From Streptacidiphilus rugosus AM-16 (GTDB lineage Bacteria > Actinomycetota > Actinomycetes > Streptomycetales > Streptomycetaceae), in assembly GCF_000744655.1 (NCBI RefSeq), contig NZ_JQMJ01000004.1, forward strand, positions 5,580,001 through 5,644,000: a stretch of 64,000 nucleotides of DNA, read 5' to 3'. Each line of letters opens with the position of its first letter. The first letter of the stretch is position 1. Shown here piece by piece: positions 4,096 to 54,990 of the stretch. The notes below the pieces were generated by a model. It was not told the origin of the DNA. It searched no databases and saw only the letters and a program-made list of their open reading frames with translations. The position numbers and the translations under genes were made by a program.

Positions 4096-4917
4096 ATGAA
4101 CGCCGACACTCCACGCACGCCCCACACTCCCCCTACCCCGCTTTCTCGCGACACCCCACTTTCCGCTCCCTCCCCACGCCCTCCCCTCTCCCCGCCGACC
4201 GCCCCCGCCGACCACCGCTGTCTCTCCCTCGCCGGGCTGCGCCACCGCGGCTGGACGCCGAGCATGGTCGGCAAACTGCTCGGCGCGCCCGACAGGACCG
4301 TCCGCAATCCGCATTTCCACGGCGCGGCCCCGTCCCGCCTCTACGCCCTCGCACGGGTCGAGGCCGCCGAGGCCACGGACGCCTACGCCGCGCTGGCCTC
4401 CGCCGCCGCGCGCCGGGCCTCCTGTTCGCGCGCCGCCGCCGACCGCCGCCGCCGGGCCGTGCTCGCGGAGGTCGAAGGCCTCTGCATCCGGGTCCCTAGG
4501 CTCGCGCCGGACGCACTTACCTCCCGGGCGGTCGCCCACCGCAACCGCCGTGACGCGCAACGCGCCTGTCGCCGCGTCGACCACACGCCCGCGCCCGCCA
4601 GCCCCGACGCCGCGGAGCCCGGCGCGCTGCGCCGTTGGCAGGTCAACTACCTGCGTCACGCGCTCACCGACTACGACGCCGTCCTGGACGGTCTGGCGGG
4701 AACAACCGGGCGGGCCGAGGCGGAGCTGCTGCTGCGCCGCCGGGTCTACGAGGCCATCGGCGCGGCGTATCCGCACCTCGCGGCGGAGTGCCGCAGGCAA
4801 CTCAACGAGCGTCAACCCCCTCCGTCGGCCGCCCGCAACAGCTACGGTGTGGGCGAGGCCGGGCCCGTCGGCCCGCCCGACCCACGAGACCAGCAGCATC
4901 CATGGAGGCCCACGTGA
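4096..4917 (+). CDS. Actinobacterial HTH-domain protein coupled to a TerD gene
   Basis: This is a 273-residue protein with no recognised enzyme domain. Residues 1-40 are Pro/Thr/Ser-rich and look disordered. Residues about 43-92 (LAGLRHRGWT...VGKLLGAPDR...NPHF...RLYALARVEAAE) read as a helix-turn-helix-like module seen in streptomycete proteins of unknown role. The middle is very rich in Ala and Arg, with many Arg repeats near 105-120, and the C-terminal third is probably helical (ALRRWQVNYLRHALTDYD). The ATG at 4096 follows a GGGGG tract; an in-frame GTG at 4090 is an alternative start. Its stop overlaps the GTG of the following TerD gene by 4 nt (GTGA), so the two are translationally coupled and probably act together, perhaps in stress or metal response. 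Function is unknown. Confidence 0.8.
   Translation: MNADTPRTPHTPPTPLSRDTPLSAPSPRPPLSPPTAPADHRCLSLAGLRHRGWTPSMVGKLLGAPDRTVRNPHFHGAAPSRLYALARVEAAEATDAYAALASAAARRASCSRAAADRRRRAVLAEVEGLCIRVPRLAPDALTSRAVAHRNRRDAQRACRRVDHTPAPASPDAAEPGALRRWQVNYLRHALTDYDAVLDGLAGTTGRAEAELLLRRRVYEAIGAAYPHLAAECRRQLNERQPPPSAARNSYGVGEAGPVGPPDPRDQQHPWRPT
4904..4917 (+). promoter_or_regulatory. Ribosome binding site fixing the TerD-protein start
   Basis: GGAGG at 4904-4908 lies 5 nt before the GTG at 4914. This supports GTG 4914 over the in-frame ATG at 4902, and places the Shine-Dalgarno inside the upstream gene, as expected for coupled translation. Confidence 0.75.
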
Positions 4918-6278
4918 CCGCAGTACTCGGCTCCGGCGGCAACGTCCCGCTGAGCGCCCTCCGGGTCACCGTGGAGGTTTCCGCGCCGCGGGCGCTGGAC
5001 GTCTCCGCGCTTCTGGTCACCGCCTCCGGCAAGGTTCGTTCGGACGCGGATCTGATCTTCTTCAACGCCCCTGAGGGCCCCGGCGTCCGCTGGACGCCGG
5101 GCGGCGGGGTCACCGTCGAGACCGGCGCGGTCCCGGCGGAGATCGACAAGATCGTCGTCACCGCCAGCCTGGACGACCCCGCGGCGACCTTCGCGGGCAC
5201 GGAGCCGACGGCGACGGTGCGCGACGCGGCCTCGGGCGAGACCCTGGCCACCTTCACTCCCGCCCAGCTCGGCGTGGAGACGGCGCTGGTCGTGGTGGAG
5301 ATCTACCGGCGCGCCGGCGCGTGGAAGCTGCGCGCGGTCGGCCAGGGCTACGCGAACGGCCTGGCGGGCATCGCGACGGACTTCGGCGTCGAGGTCGACG
5401 ACCCGGGCCCGGCCACCGCCCAGGCCCCCGCCGCACCGGTCACCCCGGCCCCGGTCGCGCCGCCGGCGACCCAGGTCCGGGAGCCCGCCCCGGCACCCGC
5501 CGCTCCCCCGGCCTGGGAGCAGCAGCCGGCTCCGGTCGCGCCCCCCGTGTGGGAGCAGCCGCAGTCCCCTGCGCCCGTGACTCCCCCGGCCTGGGAGCAG
5601 CCGCAGTCCCCGACGCCGGTCACTCCGCCCGCCTGGGAGCAGCAGCCCGCGCCGGTGGCTCCGCCCGCTCCGCAGGCGCCCGCCGCGCCCGCGGGTCCGC
5701 CGCGGGTCACTCTCGACAAGGGCCGTGTCTCGCTCACCAAGGGCGGCTCGGTCTCCCTGGTCAAGGACGGCAAGCCGTTCCTGGCCTCGGTCCGGATGGG
5801 CCTCGGCTGGGAGCCCGCCCGGCATGCGCGCAGCATCGACCTCGACGCCTCCGTCATCGCCTACGACGGCCAGCGCAACGAGTTGGAGAAGGTCTGGTTC
5901 AGCCACAAGACCGCCTTCAACCACGCGATCCAGCACGCGGGCGACAACCTGACGGGCGAGGGCAGCGGCGACGACGAGACCATCGTGGTCCACCTGTCGG
6001 CCCTCCCGCCGCAGGTCTCCGGCCTGGTCTTCACCGTGAACTCCTACAGCGGCCAGAAGTTCACCGACATCAAGAAGGCCTACTGCCGCCTGGTCGACGC
6101 GACGACCAACGCCGAACTGGTCCGCTTCGACCTCACGCAGTCCGAGCCGCGCACCGGCGTCCTGATGTGCAAGCTGGTGCGCATGCTGACCGGCGAGTGG
6201 GTGATGACGGGTCTCGGCGTCTACGCCGACGGCAAGACCGTCAAGGAGATGATCCGGGTCGGGGCCGCCGCGCTCTGA
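4914..6278 (+). CDS. Tandem TerD-domain protein with WEQ/proline repeat linker
   Basis: This is a 454-residue protein with two TerD (TerZ/TerE/CABP1-like) domains. TerD proteins bind calcium and are linked to tellurite resistance, chemical stress and differentiation in Streptomyces. Domain 1 spans about 1-163 (GSGGNVPLSALRVTVEVSAP) and lacks several of the usual acidic residues. Residues about 165-262 form a Pro/Ala linker with repeated PPAWEQ(Q/P)...PV units, with four WEQ copies. Domain 2 spans about 264-454 and keeps the calcium-type acids: DLDAS near 309-313 and GDNLTGEGSGDDE near 343-355. No signal peptide or membrane segment is seen. It is coupled to the upstream HTH protein by a GTGA overlap. 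Duplication with one degenerate copy suggests one sensing and one scaffolding domain, which is inference. Confidence 0.9.
   Translation: MTAVLGSGGNVPLSALRVTVEVSAPRALDVSALLVTASGKVRSDADLIFFNAPEGPGVRWTPGGGVTVETGAVPAEIDKIVVTASLDDPAATFAGTEPTATVRDAASGETLATFTPAQLGVETALVVVEIYRRAGAWKLRAVGQGYANGLAGIATDFGVEVDDPGPATAQAPAAPVTPAPVAPPATQVREPAPAPAAPPAWEQQPAPVAPPVWEQPQSPAPVTPPAWEQPQSPTPVTPPAWEQQPAPVAPPAPQAPAAPAGPPRVTLDKGRVSLTKGGSVSLVKDGKPFLASVRMGLGWEPARHARSIDLDASVIAYDGQRNELEKVWFSHKTAFNHAIQHAGDNLTGEGSGDDETIVVHLSALPPQVSGLVFTVNSYSGQKFTDIKKAYCRLVDATTNAELVRFDLTQSEPRTGVLMCKLVRMLTGEWVMTGLGVYADGKTVKEMIRVGAAAL
5500..5660 (+). repeat. In-frame WEQ/proline-rich tandem repeats in the TerD-protein linker
   Basis: Four degenerate units of about 14 residues, each with a Trp-Glu-Gln core followed by a Pro/Val/Thr/Ala stretch, join the two TerD domains. 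Such linkers are prone to slippage and to copy-number change between strains. Confidence 0.75.
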
Positions 6279-13675: not shown

Positions 13676-13902
13676 CGCCCGGTCGCGCTCCCCCAGGGGG
13701 CGCCAGGCACTGCGCGCCCGGCGCGCGAACGCGAGCCTCTCAGAGGGCCACAAGCGAGCCCTACGCCCTTGTCGGCTTCGACAGGACGTGTGGTGTCGGC
13801 CCGGTGCGGCCGGGCGGCCGGCTCCGGACGTGCCGGGTGGCCTCGACGCAGACCTTCGGCCGGTCGGACAACCGACCCACCGGACGGCTGCGCAGCCGTT
13901 GT
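13676..13902. other. Intergenic spacer with degenerate dispersed-repeat sequence
   Basis: No gene is seen. A motif near 13693-13760 (GGGGGCGCCAGGC ... GCGAACGCGA ... AGGGCCAC) resembles sequence flanking the repeats near 23440 and 26770, so this is probably a decayed member of the same repeat family. Confidence 0.4.
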
Positions 13903-17727: not shown

Positions 17728-19224
17728 GTGACCGACACCGACCAGCACGACAGCGATCGGCTGGAAGCCCTCGGCTACCGCCAGGAACTCAGACGCAGCC
17801 TGAACATCCTCGGCAACATCTCCATGGGCTTCGCCGTCGTCTCCCCCGTCGTCGGCCTCTACGCCGCCGCCCAGGTCGGCATGAGCGTGGCCGGCGGGGC
17901 CTGGATCTGGGCGCTGCCGATCTGCCTGCTCGGGCAGTCCCTGGTCGTCGCGGTCTACTCCGAACTCGCCTCGCAGTGGCCCCTGGCCGGCGGCGCCTAC
18001 CAGTGGAGCCGCCGACTGGCGAGCCCCGCCGTCGCCTGGCTCAGCGGCTGGATGTGGCAGTTCGCGGTGATGTTCGGCAACACCACCGTCGCCTACCTCG
18101 CCTCGCCCTGGGTCTTCGCCCTGTTCGGCGCGGTCCCGACGCCGACCGAGCAGGTGCTGGTCTCGGTCGGCTTCATGCTCTTCTGCACGCTGGTGAACGC
18201 CTACGGGATCAACTTCCTGCGCTGGTTCGTCAGCCTCGGGATCGCCGCCGAGGGCATCGCGTCGGTCCTGGTCGGTCTCACCCTGCTGCTGGTCTTCCGG
18301 CAGCACGGCTTCTCCCTGCTGACCGACTTCCTCGGCGCGCCCGCCGGGCTCGGCGTCGGTGACCTGAGCGCCTTCCTCGCCGCGGTGGCCGTCGCCGGCT
18401 GGGCCTTCATCGGCTTCGACGCCTGCGTCTCCACCGCCGAGGAGACCAAGGACGCGGCCCGCCAGGTGCCCAGGGCGATGTGGTGGTCACTGCTCAGCGT
18501 CGGGCTGGTGGTCGTCCTCAACGCGATCTCGGTCGAACTGGCCCACCCGAACCCGGCCGACGTCGTCTCCGGCAAGGACCTCGACCCGGTGACCACCGCT
18601 GTGGTCGGCGCCTTCGGCGGCTGGGCCGACAAGCCCTTCGTGGTCGTGGTGCTGGTCAGCTTCACCGCCTGCCTGATGGCCTCCCAGGGCGGCGCCGCGC
18701 GCGGGCTGTACTCGCTGGCGCGCGACGACGTCTTCCCCTTCTCGAAGCACGTCCGCAGGGTCAACCGGCACAAGGCCCCGATCGGCGGCCTGGTCGCCGC
18801 GACGGTGATCAGCTGTGCGGCGCTGCCGCTGGGACTGAGCACGTCCGCGATGGGCAGCCTGATCACCTTCGGCAGTGCGGCGACCTTCGTGCCGTTCTTC
18901 CTGCTCAGCGTGGTCGCGCTGGTGGCGCGGGTGCGGGGGACGTGGACGCCGTCCGGCGCGGTCCGCTACGGGCGTCTGGGGACGCCGCTGAACGCGCTCG
19001 CGGTGCTGTGGACCGGCTTCGAGGTGGCGAACATCTGCTGGCCCCGCAGCATTCTCGCGCCGGCCGGCGCGCCGTGGTACCAGATCTGGGCCGCGCTGCT
19101 GGGCGTCGGCGTCGTCTCCGTGGCAGGCCTCGGCTACCTCCTCGCCCGCCGCCCCCACCTCCGCATGCGCTCGGCCGACGCGGACCACCCGACCACCGAC
19201 GAGCTGGCTCCGGCGGTGATCTGA
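17728..19224 (+). CDS. APC-superfamily amino acid/amine permease
   Basis: A 498-residue integral membrane transporter with about 12 membrane segments. It matches the amino acid-polyamine-organocation family: an early helix with ISMGFAVVSPVVGLY, the GGAYQWSRRL loop, and the EETKDAARQVPRAMWWS motif after helix 6. It resembles amino acid/GABA-type permeases of actinobacteria; the substrate cannot be read. The GTG start has TTGGAGG 7 nt upstream. The palindrome just upstream and the divergent TetR gene indicate induction by its substrate or a metabolite. Confidence 0.9.
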   Translation: MTDTDQHDSDRLEALGYRQELRRSLNILGNISMGFAVVSPVVGLYAAAQVGMSVAGGAWIWALPICLLGQSLVVAVYSELASQWPLAGGAYQWSRRLASPAVAWLSGWMWQFAVMFGNTTVAYLASPWVFALFGAVPTPTEQVLVSVGFMLFCTLVNAYGINFLRWFVSLGIAAEGIASVLVGLTLLLVFRQHGFSLLTDFLGAPAGLGVGDLSAFLAAVAVAGWAFIGFDACVSTAEETKDAARQVPRAMWWSLLSVGLVVVLNAISVELAHPNPADVVSGKDLDPVTTAVVGAFGGWADKPFVVVVLVSFTACLMASQGGAARGLYSLARDDVFPFSKHVRRVNRHKAPIGGLVAATVISCAALPLGLSTSAMGSLITFGSAATFVPFFLLSVVALVARVRGTWTPSGAVRYGRLGTPLNALAVLWTGFEVANICWPRSILAPAGAPWYQIWAALLGVGVVSVAGLGYLLARRPHLRMRSADADHPTTDELAPAVI

Positions 19225-19234
19225 AGCCCCGATA

Positions 19235-19361
19235 GGGGCGCGGGGAACTGCGCGAGCAACCACCCGGTGCGGATGGCCCTGTCCGATGGGGACCATCCGC
19301 ATGCCGGTGGCTTTTCGCGCCCATGCGCCGGAGGCGCATATCGGCAGAGCCCCGCGCCCCC
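19235..19361. repeat. Dispersed nested-palindrome repeat, copy 1
   Basis: The outer arms GGGGCGCGGGG and CCCCGCGCCCC enclose inner arms GTGCGGATGG and CCATCCGCA. Related sequence occurs at about 23.5, 26.75, 50.55 and 54.94 kb. This copy lies between the 3' ends of the convergent permease and zinc-ribbon genes and could fold as a terminator-like structure. Confidence 0.75.
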
Positions 19362-19369
19362 GAAGGGGC

Positions 19370-20038
19370 CTAGCGGCGCGTGCCGCAACTGGGGCAGAAG
19401 GCGGCGCCCTGGGGGACGTCGGCGCGGCAGGAGCCGCAGCTGTCGGACTGGGCGAGGCGGTAACCGCAGCCCGGGCAGAAGTTCGCGCCGTGGGTCTCGG
19501 TATGGCAGTGCGGGCAGACCAGCTGCGTCGAGCGATTCACGTCGTACTCCGCGCCCGAGCTTCCGCCGACGTCGTAGGCCCGCTGGGAGGCGACGTCGTT
19601 CAGACCGCGCTGACGGGCCGCGGCGACCTCTGCGGCGGTGTCGGGGGCGCAGTTCAGGCAGAGGCCCTGGCCCGCGTTCCAGCACCGGTCACAGACGTAA
19701 CTCGTGCACCGCGCACAGCGGTTGAAGTGCGCCTGGGCGTCGGTGATGGCCTTCCTGAAGGCGGCGTCCTTGGACGGACCCCAGTTCGCGCCGACCAGCC
19801 CGTCCAGCGCGCTGGACGCCTCACTGCCCGCCCGCCCGAACGCGCCCCACGCGCTGCTGACGGCGCGGTCCACCCAGCCGGCCATCCGGCCGCTGGTGTA
19901 GGGCTGGAACGCGGAGCGCCAGGTGTCGTGGCAGCGGGAGCAGTTGAACTCGAACTGGAATCCCGCACCTGTTCCCGACTGCTGGCAGAGATCGTGGTAG
20001 TTGCCGGCGAAGTAGATTTCGCCGCCCTGGCCGTTCAT
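19370..20038 (-). CDS. Multi zinc-ribbon protein
   Basis: A 222-residue cytoplasmic protein dominated by cysteine pairs. CSRC lies in the first third, CARCTSYVCDRCW and CLNC in the middle, and two C-terminal double zinc ribbons (CPHCHTETHGANFCPGC; CGSCRADVPQGAAFCPSC) follow. At least five zinc-binding sites are likely. Between them is a helical, uncharged segment (SSAWGAFGRAGSEASSALDG). Proteins of this build are usually scaffolds or nucleic-acid/protein-binding adaptors; no enzyme motif is seen. The ATG at 20036-20038 has GAGGGGG 9 nt upstream; the in-frame extension to about 20155 is unlikely to be translated. Confidence 0.78.
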   Translation of the reverse strand: MNGQGGEIYFAGNYHDLCQQSGTGAGFQFEFNCSRCHDTWRSAFQPYTSGRMAGWVDRAVSSAWGAFGRAGSEASSALDGLVGANWGPSKDAAFRKAITDAQAHFNRCARCTSYVCDRCWNAGQGLCLNCAPDTAAEVAAARQRGLNDVASQRAYDVGGSSGAEYDVNRSTQLVCPHCHTETHGANFCPGCGYRLAQSDSCGSCRADVPQGAAFCPSCGTRR

Positions 20039-22143: not shown

Positions 22144-23427
22144 ATGGCGGAACTCACCCCTGCCGGGACACGCCTCAGCGAGGCGCTGCTCCCACCCGAG
22201 CTCGCCCCCCGCGAGCGCCTGCGCACCCCGGCCCTGAGCCGCTGGAACGCGCTGCGCGGCGTCCGGGTCGGCCTGACGGTCGCGGTCCTGCTGCTCCTGC
22301 TGACCGGCGCCAACCTGGCGACGCCCCTCTACCCCGCGCTCCAGGCGCGCCTCGGCCTCACCCCGGTGGACACCACGCTGCTGTTCACCGCCTACGTCTT
22401 CGCGGTCGTCCCGGTCCTCGCCGCCGTCGGCCACTGGTCCGACCGGCTGGGCCGCCGGGCGCTGGTCCTGCCCGCCGTCGCCCTCGCCGCGGCGGGCGAC
22501 GCGGTCTTCGCCTCCGCCGGCACCCTCGGCGAGCTGGCCCTCGGGCGCGCCGTGCAGGGCCTCGCGGTCGGCCTGGCCACCGGCGCGGCGGGCGCGGCAC
22601 TGGCCGACCTGCTGCCCGACCGCCCCAGCCTCGCCGCGAAGCTGACGCTGGCCGCGTCCGCCGGCGGCGTGGCGCTCGGCCCGCTGCTGGGCGCTGCGCT
22701 GGCCCGCGGCGCGGACCCGCTGGTCACGCCGTTCGCGGTGCACGCCGTCGCGCTCCTGGCGCTCTGCGTCCCGCTGGCGCTGCTGCACCCGCGCTCCCCC
22801 GGCCACTATGCGGTCGTCCCGCCCAGGATCAGCCTCCGCCCGCGCGCGCTCAGCCTGCCGCGGCGCGGCCGGGCGGCGTTCCTGCTGGCAGCGGCGGCGG
22901 GCTTCGTGTCCTACGCGGTCTTCGGCGTCTACCTCAGCCTGGCCCCCGGCTACGCGGCGCTGTTGCTGCACACCCGCAATCCGCTCGGCGGCGCGGGCGT
23001 GGCGGCGCTGCTGCTCGGCTCCTCCGCGGTGGCCCAGCTCCTGGCCCGCCCCACGCGCTCACGCGCGGTGCCCGCCCTCGGCATGGCCGGCCTGGCGCTC
23101 GGCCTCGGCCTGGTCGTCCTGGCCGGCGGCGCGCAGTCGCCCGCCCTGCTGTTCGCCGGCAGCGTGCTGGCGGGCGGCTGTCAGGGGCTGGCCTTCCGGA
23201 CGCTGTTCACGACGGCGACGGCGGCGATGGAGCCGGAACACCGCGGCTCGCAGCTGAGCGCGCTCTGGGTGGTCGTCTACATGGGCAGCTCCCTGCCCAC
23301 CATCGCGGTCGGCTTCCTCGCTCGCGCGTACGGCATCCTCCCCGCCGTCAGCACGTTCGCGGCCGTGGCCGCGACCGCGTGCATCGCCCTGGCCGCGGCG
23401 TCCCTCCGCGTCGGCACCCAGCGCTAG
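22144..23427 (+). CDS. MFS efflux transporter
   Basis: A 427-residue major facilitator superfamily protein with about 12 membrane segments. The first helix is VGLTVAVLLLLLTGANLATP, and the loop 2-3 motif GHWSDRLGRRALVLP is the classic MFS GxxxDRxGRR signature. It resembles drug/sugar efflux permeases. The ATG follows AGGAG with 9-nt spacing. A copy of the dispersed repeat begins about 50 bp after its stop. The substrate is unknown, and no dedicated regulator adjoins it. Confidence 0.88.
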   Translation: MAELTPAGTRLSEALLPPELAPRERLRTPALSRWNALRGVRVGLTVAVLLLLLTGANLATPLYPALQARLGLTPVDTTLLFTAYVFAVVPVLAAVGHWSDRLGRRALVLPAVALAAAGDAVFASAGTLGELALGRAVQGLAVGLATGAAGAALADLLPDRPSLAAKLTLAASAGGVALGPLLGAALARGADPLVTPFAVHAVALLALCVPLALLHPRSPGHYAVVPPRISLRPRALSLPRRGRAAFLLAAAAGFVSYAVFGVYLSLAPGYAALLLHTRNPLGGAGVAALLLGSSAVAQLLARPTRSRAVPALGMAGLALGLGLVVLAGGAQSPALLFAGSVLAGGCQGLAFRTLFTTATAAMEPEHRGSQLSALWVVVYMGSSLPTIAVGFLARAYGILPAVSTFAAVAATACIALAAASLRVGTQR

Positions 23428-23480: not shown

Positions 23481-23651
23481 GGGGCGCGGGGAACTGCGCG
23501 AGAAACCACCCTGTGCGGATGGCCCTGTTACTGGAGGACCATCCGCACAGGGTGCTTGTCGCGCAGTTCCCCGCGCCCCTGGACAGTGCAACGTCCAGTG
23601 CTCGAAGTGACTCGCCCGCGCGGCGGAGCCGCGCAGTTCCTCGCGCCCCTG
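23481..23651. repeat. Dispersed nested-palindrome repeat, copy 2 (most complete)
   Basis: Outer arms of about 21 bp (23481-23501 with 23559-23580; GGGGCGCGGGGAACTGCGCG and its complement) enclose inner arms CCACCCTGTGCGGATGG and its imperfect complement around a loop of about 16 nt. A third arm copy (GCGCAGTTCCTCGCGCCCCT) follows at 23631-23650. The repeat overlaps the 3' end of the leftward membrane-protein gene and supplies its last codons and stop. Confidence 0.8.
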
Positions 23652-26675: not shown

Positions 26676-26768
26676 GGGTCACATTGTGCTATGCGGCACC
26701 ACCCCGAGGGGCGCGAGGCTCTGCCCGCCTGCGGCGCCTCAGCTCACAGCAGAGGCCCGGTTGCAGAC

Positions 26769-26807
26769 ACCTCAGGGGCGCCAGGCTCTGCCCCGCGCCC
26801 CTGAGGT
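26769..26807 (-). terminator. Terminator of the suf operon (repeat-family hairpin, copy 3)
   Basis: A 12-bp perfect stem (26769-26780 with 26796-26807, ACCTCAGGGGCG type) and a 15-nt loop lie 20 nt after the sufT stop codon. Together with the neighbouring GGGGCGCGAGGCTCTGCC at 26709-26725 it is a member of the dispersed repeat family. Confidence 0.7.
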
Positions 26808-35713: not shown

Positions 35714-36682
35714 ATGAATCGCGTGCGTACCCCCTTCTCCCTTCTCGCCGAGCGCGTCACCGTCCCGGACCAGTGGGTCCGGCGTGCGGCGCTGGCGACG
35801 CTGGTGTGCAGCGTCCTGATCATCGTCACCGGTGGTGCGGTGCGGCTGACCGGCTCCGGTCTCGGCTGCCCGACCTGGCCCACCTGCACGTCGTCGACGC
35901 TCGCGCCGACGTCGGCGATGGGCGTCCACGGCCTGATCGAGTTCGGCAACCGGATGCTGACGGACGTGATCTGCGTCGTCGTCGGTCTGGCGATCATCGC
36001 CGCGCGCTGTGCGAAGCCGCACCGCAAGGACGTGACGCGGCTCGGGTGGTACCAGTTCTGGATCATCGTGGCCGAAGCCGTCATCGGCGGGATCACCGTG
36101 CTGACGCACCTGAACCCCTACGTGGTCTCGCTGCACTTCCTCAGCTCGATGCTGCTGATCCTCACCTCGCTGGCCATGTGGCAGCGCACCCGTGAGGGCG
36201 ACGGCGCGCCGGTACGCACGGTCGGCCGCCCGATCATCCACCTCTCCCGCGTCACGGTCGCCATGACCGCCCTGCTGGTCGTCGCGGGCACCCTGGTCAC
36301 CGGCACCGGCCCGCACCCGGGCGACAGCAGCGACGTGAAGCGGATGCCGTTCGACTGGGACAAGATCACCCAGTTCCACGCCGACTTCGCGATGATCAGC
36401 GTCGGCCTCGCCGTGGCCATGCTCTTCGTCCTGATGGCCGTCGACGCCCCCCACGCGCCCCGCCGCGCGGCGAAGGAGTTCCTGGCCGTGCTCCTCGCCC
36501 AGGGCGTCCTCGGCTTCGTCCAGTACTTCACCCACGTGCCCGAGCTGCTGGTCGGCATCCACCTGCTGGGCGCCGCCCTGTGCTGGATCGCGGTGCTGCG
36601 CCTGCACCTCTCGCTCCGCGTCCGCCCCGCAGCCGACGCGCTGCCCCGCCCGGCCGACATCGAGGCCCTGGCCGTCGCCTGA
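35714..36682 (+). CDS. ctaA: Heme A synthase CtaA (COX15 type)
   Basis: A 322-residue membrane protein with about eight helices that hydroxylates and oxidises heme O to heme A for cytochrome c oxidase. Seen are GGAVRLTGSGLGCPTWPTC near the N-terminus (with the conserved cysteines and heme-binding glutamate/histidine pattern), EFGNRM, HFLSSMLLI, TGPHPGD and HIHADF-like FHADFAM, and LLVGIHLLGAAL. The ATG at 35714 has GGGAGGG upstream. It converges with the small conserved protein and ends at a strong hairpin. CtaB nearby makes its substrate. Confidence 0.95.
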   Translation: MNRVRTPFSLLAERVTVPDQWVRRAALATLVCSVLIIVTGGAVRLTGSGLGCPTWPTCTSSTLAPTSAMGVHGLIEFGNRMLTDVICVVVGLAIIAARCAKPHRKDVTRLGWYQFWIIVAEAVIGGITVLTHLNPYVVSLHFLSSMLLILTSLAMWQRTREGDGAPVRTVGRPIIHLSRVTVAMTALLVVAGTLVTGTGPHPGDSSDVKRMPFDWDKITQFHADFAMISVGLAVAMLFVLMAVDAPHAPRRAAKEFLAVLLAQGVLGFVQYFTHVPELLVGIHLLGAALCWIAVLRLHLSLRVRPAADALPRPADIEALAVA

Positions 36683-49044: not shown

Positions 49045-50163
49045 GTGAAGTTCTCCATGATCTTCGAGGCGCAACTCGCCCACCCCACCCCCGAACGCGA
49101 GCACGCCCTGCTCCACGACAGCGTCGAGCAGGCGGTCCTGGCCGAGGCCGTCGGCTTCGACCGCGTCTGGGCGGTGGAGCACCACTCCCTGCTCCGCTAC
49201 GCGCACATGAGCGCCTCGGAGATCTTCCTGACCTGGGTCGCCGCGCGCACCTCGCGGATCAGGATCGGCCACGGCGTCGTCACCATGCCCTTCGGCTACC
49301 AGCATCCGCTGCGCGTGGCCGAGCGCAGCGCGATGCTGGACGCCCTGTCGGGCGGCCGGGTCGACGTCGGGGCGGGCCGCGGCGCGACGGCCCAGGAGAT
49401 GGCCATGTTCGGCGTGCGCGCCGAGGACACCTACCCTCAGGTCGAGGAGGCCCTGCGGATCATCGCGGCGGCCTGGTGCAAGGAACAGTTCGAATGGCAC
49501 GGCTCCCTCGACATCGGCCCCGGCGCGGTCCTCCCCCGCCCCGCCCAACTGCCGCACCCGCCCCTGTTCATGGCCTGCAGCAAGCACGACACGCTGCGCA
49601 CCGCGGCGGAGTACGGCGTGGGAGCCCTGGTCCTGGGCTTCGCCGGCGCGCAGGACGTCCGCGAGATGCGGGCGGTCTACGACGCCGCCCTGGCCTCACG
49701 CGACGGCTCCCGCCTGGTCTCCACCGAGGTCAACGACCACTTCGCGGCGCTCTGCCCGACGATCGTCCTCGACGACGCGGCGGAGGCCTACCGGATCGGC
49801 ACCCGGGGCCAGCGCTTCTTCGCCGAGTCCATCGCCCACTGGTACGGGGGCGGCCCGGAACCCGCCGAGGACGCCCCCGACGAGGACCACGCGGCGGTGA
49901 TGGCCACCCACGAACGGCGGTTGGTCGCCGAACTCCACGAGTCCCGGGTCCCGGTCCGTCCCAGCGCGACCGGCACCTTCAACGTCGACCACGCCTACGG
50001 CGACGCCGCGACTGCCCTGGCCTACGTGGAGCAGCTCGCCGCCATCGGCGTGGACGAGGTCATCTGCCTCGTCCAAATGGGCACGGTTCCCCAGGAGGCC
50101 TGCCTGGAGACCATCCGGCAGTGGGGAGAACACGTCATCCCGCGGTTTCCCGACCGGGGGTGA
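49045..50163 (+). CDS. LLM-class flavin-dependent oxidoreductase
   Basis: A 372-residue bacterial-luciferase-family monooxygenase (TIM barrel). Typical segments are GFDRVWAVEHHSL near 32-44, TSRIRIGHGVVTMPFGYQHPLRVAE, SGGRVDVGAGRGATAQEM and the C-terminal VDEVICLVQMG. It uses FMN (or F420) to oxidise an unknown small molecule. Controlled by the divergent PadR. Its 3' end overlaps the 3' end of the small convergent membrane protein by 29 bp. Confidence 0.92.
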   Translation: MKFSMIFEAQLAHPTPEREHALLHDSVEQAVLAEAVGFDRVWAVEHHSLLRYAHMSASEIFLTWVAARTSRIRIGHGVVTMPFGYQHPLRVAERSAMLDALSGGRVDVGAGRGATAQEMAMFGVRAEDTYPQVEEALRIIAAAWCKEQFEWHGSLDIGPGAVLPRPAQLPHPPLFMACSKHDTLRTAAEYGVGALVLGFAGAQDVREMRAVYDAALASRDGSRLVSTEVNDHFAALCPTIVLDDAAEAYRIGTRGQRFFAESIAHWYGGGPEPAEDAPDEDHAAVMATHERRLVAELHESRVPVRPSATGTFNVDHAYGDAATALAYVEQLAAIGVDEVICLVQMGTVPQEACLETIRQWGEHVIPRFPDRG

Positions 50164-50425: not shown

Positions 50426-50546
50426 GACGCCATGGTGCCACCGCGGAGCCCGCCCGGAAACGCCCCAGGGGCGCGAGACTCTGCCGATCTGCGCCTCCGG
50501 CACACGGGCGCGACACCCCACCGCGAAAGCCGTCCCCGGAAACGCC

Positions 50547-50653
50547 CCAGGGGCGCGAGGAACGGCGCGACAAGCCACCCACAGGGGGGATGGCCCTCAA
50601 CGTAAAGGGCCGTCCGTACAGGGTGGTTGCTCGCGCAGTTCCTCGCGCCCCTG
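50547..50653. repeat. Dispersed nested-palindrome repeat, copy 4
   Basis: The outer arms CCAGGGGCGCGAGGAAC and GTTCCTCGCGCCCCTGG are complementary, with inner arms around GCCACCC and GGGTGG. A partial arm (CCCAGGGGCGCGAGACTCTGCC) precedes it at 50464-50485. It lies between the small membrane gene and the RbpA-type gene and may act as the latter's terminator. Confidence 0.75.
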
Positions 50654-50679: not shown

Positions 50680-51015
50680 TCAGATCTCGCCGCGGAGCTT
50701 GGCGAGGGCCTCGGCGAGGATCGCCTCGCCGTCGGCGTCGCTGCGGCGCTCGCGGACGTAGGCGAGGTGGGTCTTGTAGGGCTCGGTCCGCGGCGGGGCC
50801 GGCGGGTTCTCCTCGTCCTGCCCTGCGGGGAACCCGCAGCGCGGGCAGTCCCAGGTCTCGGGGATCTGCGCGTCCGACGCGAAGCTCGGCTTCGTCTCGT
50901 GCCCGTTGGCGCACCAGAAGGAGATGCGCAGGCGCGGAGCGGACTCGCCGCGCTCGGCCTCACCCATCGGGCCTGCCCCGACCCTGCTGCCACGGATGGC
51001 GTTGCCACTTGCCAC
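50680..51015 (-). CDS. RNA polymerase-binding protein of the RbpA family
   Basis: A 111-residue zinc protein of the RbpA family. These actinobacterial proteins bind the principal sigma factor and RNA polymerase and stimulate transcription. Zinc ligands are Cys35, His39, Cys57 and Cys60 (WCANGHETKP ... WDCPRCGFP). The C-terminal sigma-interaction helix is KTHLAYVRERRSDADGEAILAEALAKLR. It lies by secG and probably is the second RbpA paralogue of streptomycetes rather than the main RbpA. The GTG at 51013-51015 has AGGGAG upstream. Confidence 0.85.
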   Translation of the reverse strand: MASGNAIRGSRVGAGPMGEAERGESAPRLRISFWCANGHETKPSFASDAQIPETWDCPRCGFPAGQDEENPPAPPRTEPYKTHLAYVRERRSDADGEAILAEALAKLRGEI

Positions 51016-53737: not shown

Positions 53738-54926
<1,189 letters not shown>

Positions 54927-54962
54927 CGCACAGGGGCGCGGGGTTCCCCGCGCCCCTGTGCG
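54927..54962 (-). terminator. Perfect 17-bp hairpin terminator after whiA (repeat-family arm, copy 5)
   Basis: CGCACAGGGGCGCGGGG at 54927-54943 pairs perfectly with 54946-54962 around a 2-nt loop, 28 nt after the whiA stop. Its arm matches the outer arm of the dispersed repeat. It should end the uvrC-rapZ-yvcK-whiA message. Confidence 0.85.
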
Positions 54963-54990
54963 TACTGCAACGTCCCGGCTGCCGGAACGA

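Follow-up and report, generated by a model that had tools for sequence, protein, structure and literature searches.

A family of nested inverted repeats, built on a constant 20-nt arm (GGGGCGCGGGGAACTGCGCG), is dispersed at the 3' ends of genes in the genome (G000, 9.0 Mb in four contigs) that contains the analyzed window, a stretch of 64,000 nucleotides (G000:C4:5580001-5644000). The family is real: across the whole genome the arm occurs at 435 sites with at most two mismatches and at 359 with at most one, compared with 6 and 1 for the reversed pattern, far above the handful of copies that the initial annotation had set as a lower limit. We consider it likely that these are Streptomycetaceae-specific, REP/BIME-like repeats, probably not spread by a RAYT, which most likely end or protect transcripts in place of ordinary terminators. 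To our knowledge, little is known of the origin and turnover of terminators, and the Streptomycetaceae are makers of many antibiotics. On a more tentative reading, a RAYT-independent REP system whose arm is recognized by a Streptomycetaceae factor would supply ready-made bidirectional terminators and thereby rewire gene ends. The question arises of how hundreds of copies of an identical 20-nt arm are spread and preserved, given that most carriers tested lack RAYT, the known REP mobilizer.

Within a sample of 1.984 Mb, comprising 96 stretches of 20 kb and the window, arm sites with 0, 1, 2 and 3 mismatches numbered 44, 37, 18 and 7, against averages of 0, 0, 0.1 and 3.4 for permuted patterns, and the usual arm context in this genome is CA-GGGGCGCGGGGAACTGCGCG-A. 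Arms with up to three mismatches form 57 clusters in the sample, of which 21 are simple inverted pairs, 26 are single arms and 10 are composites. Spacing in inverted pairs is mostly 78-82 nt, with one pair at 23 and one at 168, while direct units are spaced 70-74 nt apart; two arrays, of 7 and 8 arms, show spacings of 81, 72, 73, 72, 73, 72 and 81, 72, 72, 72, 72, 72, 72. Other genomes carry the arm unchanged with different spacers, and inside-out pairs are present there too, at 25-65 nt in G003 and at 59 and 94 nt in G018, beside 105 nt for the usual order; the recurrent spacings of G018 are 59, 73, 94 and 105. A separate array, L258 (G137 contig 2, 6050 onward), consists of ten arms in the same orientation, with spacings of 79, 80 and 99 repeated three times over, near-exactly. 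Mosaic structure, alternating or repeated orientation and recurrent spacer lengths are the features of a BIME; the 435 arms, forming short intergenic palindromes with none of 46 clusters in called genes, agree with a REP, and the 39 two-arm copies possess the terminal inverted repeats of a MITE. Rfam yielded no match at gathering score within the window.

Table 1. Members of the repeat family and related structures in the window (positions counted from the first letter of the 64,000-nt stretch).
Feature	Position	Strand	Details
Putative relic, doubtful	13693..13760		One 3-mismatch arm, 13697-13716
Composite element	19235..19361	+	Exact arm 19235-19254, inner module, small hairpin ATGCGCCGGAGGCGCAT, variant closing arm 19341-19360
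Canonical arm-inner-arm nested hairpin	23481..23579	+	Both arms exact
Direct unit, 70-nt spacing	23580..23651	+	Small hairpin and third arm 23630-23649 (1 mismatch)
Related plain hairpin, peripheral member	26703..26807		ACCTCAGGGGCGC...GCGCCCCTGAGGT, diverged arms
Spacer and variant arm of composite	50464..50549	-	At rbpA 3' end
Arm-inner-arm nested hairpin	50550..50651	-	Arms with 2 and 1 mismatches
Short member, perfect hairpin	54918..54971	-	Half-arm GGGGCGCGGGG, GTTGCA flank, downstream of whiA

Exact arms in the window lie at 19235 and 23481 on the plus strand and at 23560 on the minus strand, arms with one mismatch at 23630 and 50632 (both minus), and an arm with two mismatches at 50550 (plus); the third arm of the 23481 cluster is oriented like the arm at 23560. 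The two strands of 23481-23579 fold at -92 and -95 kcal/mol (z -13.7 and -15.6), those of 50550-50651 at -76 and -80 kcal/mol (z about -10), and the minus strand of 54918-54971 at -56.5 kcal/mol (z -11), with a z of -6.6 against dinucleotide shuffles for 19235-19361. Exact arms and nested folds far beyond dinucleotide shuffles bear out the nested inverted repeat family that was initially proposed. Six places had been listed for it, and those at 19235, 23481 and 50464 are real copies, but 26709 is a diverged plain hairpin, 54927 a half arm, and 13693 doubtful, the fold of 13690-13760 being no better than chance (z +0.3 and +0.7). The arms at 26709-26807 carry 4-5 mismatches, the fold of 26703-26807 is modest to marginal (z -2.8 and -3.0), and a plain hairpin stands at the orthologous tandem gap in all five compared congeners, so this structure is regarded as a related plain hairpin and not a full copy. 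Its GGGGCGCGGGG-like stems, and those of the congener hairpins, resemble half an arm, and such hairpins might be either precursors of the repeat or what is left of it.

All six places lie at 3' ends of genes, as the initial annotation had stated: convergent genes flank 13693, 19235 and 50464, tandem gaps hold 26709 and 54927, and 23481 has a convergent arrangement in which a minus-strand ORF enters the element. The 127-bp element at 19235 occupies the space between an amino-acid permease gene (17728-19224) and a convergent gene whose end is at 19370, leaving about ten bases free on each side. The nested hairpin at 50550 separates another convergent pair, rbpA on the minus strand (50680-50967) and a gene for a luciferase-like monooxygenase on the plus strand (49045-50163). 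Convergent to an MFS transporter gene (22144-23427) is the minus-strand ORF that ends at 23528; it is in the same frame as its relatives but lacks their stop and continues into the element, whereas in G002, G008 and G007 the ORF ends earlier. Between 23528 and 23660 it has gained about 50 residues, some 40 of them repeat-encoded, and its stop lies within the element. Genes were called with a codon-usage caller written for this analysis, which missed at least one gene, that convergent to 22144-23427.

An arm profile (E below 0.001) served to find the clusters in the 1.984-Mb sample whose placement was tallied. Among 46 clusters, 27 were convergent, 13 tandem, 4 divergent and 2 at stretch edges, with none in called genes, the 23481 cluster being counted as tandem because its convergent gene was missed by the caller. 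The 27 convergent clusters among 44 placed compare with 8.5 expected by gap length and a maximum of 18 in 2000 draws, and 10 of the 13 tandem-gap clusters lie closer to the upstream stop. Nineteen of 20 further stretches chosen for holding arms, from eight other genomes and with the G002 stretch excluded, gave 40 clusters: 19 convergent, 19 tandem, none divergent, 1 at an edge and 1 in a called gene. Such placement is not by itself remarkable, since a preference for convergent gaps is shared by bacterial hairpins in general according to the available part of PMC1590033, and the 4 of 44 clusters in divergent gaps, where a terminator makes little sense, count against a terminator reading. Along the chromosome, no profile match fell in the 24 stretches sampled from C1 and from C4 0-1.55 Mb, and 2 fell in the 20 sampled from C4 3.6-5.4 Mb, although these regions do contain convergent gaps; the whole-genome arm search placed at least a few exact arms in C4 0-1.55 Mb and 3.6-5.4 Mb. 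Arms are thus scarce in parts of C4, but dnaA lies on another contig, C3, and no ori-related pattern is claimed. A strand bias along contigs, suspected in G018, was withdrawn on a fuller site list.

Convergent gaps occupied by an element seldom contain a second hairpin. Of 19 occupied convergent gaps, 3 held a further hairpin of at least 10 bp, whereas a hairpin of this size was present in 70 of 122 free gaps (Fisher p=0.0009), the free gaps measuring 40-400 nt and the occupied ones being the 19 of 26 in the sample with at least 40 nt left; length-matched coding sequence gave such a hairpin in 15 of 122 cases. This scarcity suggests that the elements are probably bidirectional U-less terminators or 3'-end protectors. 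The contrast is not clear in tandem gaps, where 2 of 9 occupied gaps (those of the 13 with at least 40 nt left) and 190 of 613 free gaps held a hairpin, and divergent free gaps resemble their control (49 vs 51 of 214). TTTT was found within ten bases of none of 78 element ends and none of 140 plain hairpin ends, which is consistent with the U-less or I-shaped terminators of Streptomyces, described in the available parts of PMC8269248, PMC8780764 and PMC12207403 as long, stable GC hairpins that lack a U-tract and coincide with transcript 3' ends. The elements share the form of stable GC hairpins shortly after stop codons, although these available parts describe U-less terminators as single sites and not as a repeat family. 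One TERMITe annotation pipeline accepts stem-loops of at most 59 nt, and two-arm copies of about 100 nt would therefore be excluded. More generally, such 100-nt structures would escape any annotation or Term-seq pipeline restricted to short hairpins.

Comparison of single loci reveals turnover of sites. The element is absent from the 19224/19370 gap in G008, G007, G002 and G006, where 6, 12, 22 and 34 nt, respectively, separate the stops; G006 has a 10-bp hairpin there, and G002, G007 and G008 have none of at least 9 bp, and with three relatives lacking a hairpin of that size, the element is not needed at this locus. G004 carries its own copy behind the amino-acid permease gene, and the second gene of the pair gave no match. 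At the rbpA 3' end, inspection by eye of 14 genomes identified the element in G000 and, rearranged, in G004; a similar plain hairpin is present in 6 of 8 Kitasatospora-like named loci, and Kitasatospora sp. CB01950 has three other hairpins behind rbpA, followed by an exact arm. One clean terminator replacement was observed, at 36682/36760, where G000, G002, G006, G007 and G008 possess a plain hairpin (stem 16-27 bp) and G004 has a two-arm element without any other hairpin, the dispersed repeat occupying the place of a plain terminator common to close relatives. Downstream of whiA, elements occur in G002, G004 and G006 (a two-arm form in two of these genomes, a variant closing arm in the third), a half-arm hairpin in G000, a 16-bp plain hairpin in G008, and a plain hairpin, seen by eye, in G007. 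The rule of either an element or a plain hairpin, never both, was dropped for this less clean locus, as G006 carries a 10-bp hairpin next to its element and the G007 hairpin was seen by eye only. The whiA-gap interval measures about 3.7-3.8 kb in G006 and G007 vs 0.25-0.5 kb, and adjoins the terminator position.

The initial annotation held that the fold, not the exact sequence, seems selected, which the data do not support: across 39 aligned inverted pairs, variation is 3.2% and 3.7% in the two arm blocks, compared with 15.7% in the inner part, and other genera carry these 20 nt unchanged around different spacers. As these 39 copies were found via their arms, an extra search was conducted with the inner module alone, its profile being derived from these very 39 copies (27 of them located within the sampled sequence). 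It returned 49 places (strands merged) with 97 arm positions, 70 showing at most 3 mismatches, 2 showing 4-7, and 25 showing 8 or more and hence no arm, whereas 500 random windows gave 5-13 mismatches, mostly 8-11. An arm next to the inner module is thus either intact or absent altogether, and rarely half-decayed. Pairing across the 39 copies amounts to 96.6% in the outer helix and 80.1% in the inner helix. Compensatory change in the inner arms, also proposed initially, is hinted at by 16 cells with both-sided changes vs 9.3 in shuffles (4 of 500 shuffles reach 16), but 7 of the 16 fall in one outer pair (G-C to A-U, with G-U in 5 further copies) and 7 in four inner pairs; pairs with a both-sided change number 7 vs 5.1 in shuffles (74/500), and pair types are no different (327/500). 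Strong covariation was rejected on these mixed pair counts and an RNAalifold covariation term of -0.17. The inner part beats mononucleotide shuffles (z below -2) in only 25 of the 39 copies. No pair among the 39 copies exceeds 95% identity, and no recent burst is seen. Plain hairpins at orthologous places change letters between congeners, so the identity of the arm across genera exceeds the apparent need of the fold, and a sequence-specific factor or continuing homogenization may maintain it.

Of 297 Streptomycetaceae genomes, 171 carry exact arms; they represent 9 of the 17 genera, one of them through a single site, and the number of exact arms ranges from 0 to 471 per genome, with many carriers below 10. 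Searching 24 of the 126 genomes without an exact arm at up to two mismatches gave 0-4 sites each and 48 in total vs 16 for the reversed control, which is close to background. A phylum-wide draw of 396 genomes contained 8 matching genomes, all among its 12 Streptomycetaceae, and exact arms in none of the 384 outside the family. Among 80 named whiA loci retained for comparison, the best match of WhiA from the window is in Kitasatospora (96%), which places the host in that genus or close to it. Arms with at most 3 mismatches were found at 11 of these 80 loci, and exact arms in Kitasatospora sp. CB01950, S. bambusae, S. griseocarneus, S. smyrnaeus and Streptomyces sp. ASQP_92. Carriage by phages, plasmids or viruses was rejected, as viral contigs held no exact arm and one 99-nt copy had no blastn match in phages or plasmids, a search in which the low-complexity filter may hide some matches. 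The literature search returned no text containing 16- or 20-mers of the arm, its 13-mers matching one mouse paper, and no title or opening of an abstract naming such a Streptomyces repeat family, within a scope that covered few subscription papers, so an earlier note is possible.

Several known systems offer points of comparison. The REP and BIME of Enterobacteriaceae and Pseudomonas, as described in the available parts of PMC2817692 and PMC3733652, are hundreds of short, palindrome-forming intergenic repeats, single, paired or arrayed, located mainly between convergent and unidirectional genes and downstream of coding regions. The present family resembles that description in copy number, in its single, paired (both orientations) and arrayed forms, and in placement; it differs in having no GTRG tag and no CGTC tag visible in the consensus, in the absence of RAYT from most carriers tested, in its confinement to Streptomycetaceae in the searches made, and in a 20-nt arm that pairs with a second arm instead of with itself. 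Untagged REP-like families of M. tuberculosis, D. radiodurans, Bordetella, Brucella and cyanobacteria, as outlined in the accessible part of PMC3733652, are likewise palindromes without conserved terminal motifs, a likeness of description and not of sequence; the element differs from them in one arm common to nine genera and in the site turnover and terminator replacement seen here. Palindromes in S. coelicolor 3' UTRs with short transcripts, likened to REP and read as decay intermediates in the portion available of PMC4681348, share the stable stem-loops in 3' UTRs, and cutoRNAs are overlapping 3' ends of convergent Streptomyces genes (PMC3765725, available part), an overlap that the elements would be expected to limit. 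The available parts of these two sources name no repeat family.

The constant unit of the family would be the 20-nt arm, arranged in pairs of either orientation around species-specific spacers, as singles, or in short direct arrays. Copies would be dispersed over the chromosome by a mechanism probably other than RAYT and would persist at 3' ends, where either strand, when transcribed, is predicted to form a very stable hairpin without a U-tract, at -76 to -95 kcal/mol for the two-arm copies of the window. Such an element most likely ends or protects the transcripts of a single gene, or those from both members of a convergent pair, in place of ordinary hairpin terminators. The letter-for-letter identity of the arm in nine genera, with spacers, flanks and sites turning over, might reflect a Streptomycetaceae factor recognizing the sequence, either a mobilizer or an arm-binding protein, a suggestion that we hold tentatively and would sooner doubt than adopt.

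Regarding mobilization, the linked RAYT-type transposase that the initial annotation suggested looking for is not supported, and a classical REP/REPIN mobilized by such an IS200-like Y1 transposase is largely refuted, despite the BIME-like mosaic architecture and the copy number that would suit it. PF01797 (Y1, IS200/RAYT family) had no match in 11 of 17 genomes with at least 100 exact arms, including the genome with 471; matches were present in the remaining 6, in 3 of the 4 genomes with low copy number and in 1 of the 7 lacking exact arms, the latter with 18 matches. G000 itself contains three IS200-like genes plus a split PF01797 match, next to a frame that we take to be TnpB-like, and its Y1 genes have no arm with at most 4 mismatches in about 1.5 kb; a GTRG (GTAG/GTGG) head was absent within about 8 nt from all 78 element flanks. 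A MITE moved by a DDE transposase would fit the size of about 100 bp, the long terminal inverted repeats and the existence of both occupied and empty sites, but is very improbable: the flanks of 39 copies show direct repeats no more often than with shuffled partners, so that the target-site duplication envisaged for a MITE is not seen, inside-out pairs, single arms and direct arrays exist as well, and no two of the 39 copies are more than 95% identical. These membership tests indicate that the family is neither a RAYT-type REP nor a strict MITE, and 'BIME-like, untagged' is a fair label; of the initial REP/MITE-like reading, a REP/BIME-like nature and the position at gene ends are supported, on copy number, mosaic architecture, site polymorphism and a terminator replacement.

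Two further explanations concern function. It is unlikely, though deserving of weight, that the copies are selfish repeats tolerated at 3' ends, where they escape the cost of insertion into genes or promoters, and have no role in termination. Their absence from called genes in the 46-cluster sample, their rarity in divergent gaps, the hairpin-free relatives at 19224/19370, the variation from 0 to 471 copies between species of one family and the unclear hairpin scarcity in tandem gaps all accord with tolerance; yet per base, convergent gaps are enriched over tandem gaps, occupied convergent gaps hold few other hairpins, the plain terminator common to five genomes is missing where the element stands, and the inner part drifts while the arms stay intact. 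A DNA-level binding site, serving a nucleoid protein, gyrase or a replication or segregation factor with incidental 3' placement, draws on the conservation of the arm sequence across genera beyond pairing and on the uneven distribution along the chromosome; the convergent and 3'-end preference, the replaced plain terminator and the absence of the arm from many near-complete genomes make it improbable. As a separate observation in the window, three imperfect repeats of about 60 nt are located at 5488-5667, within a called gene (4902-6278).
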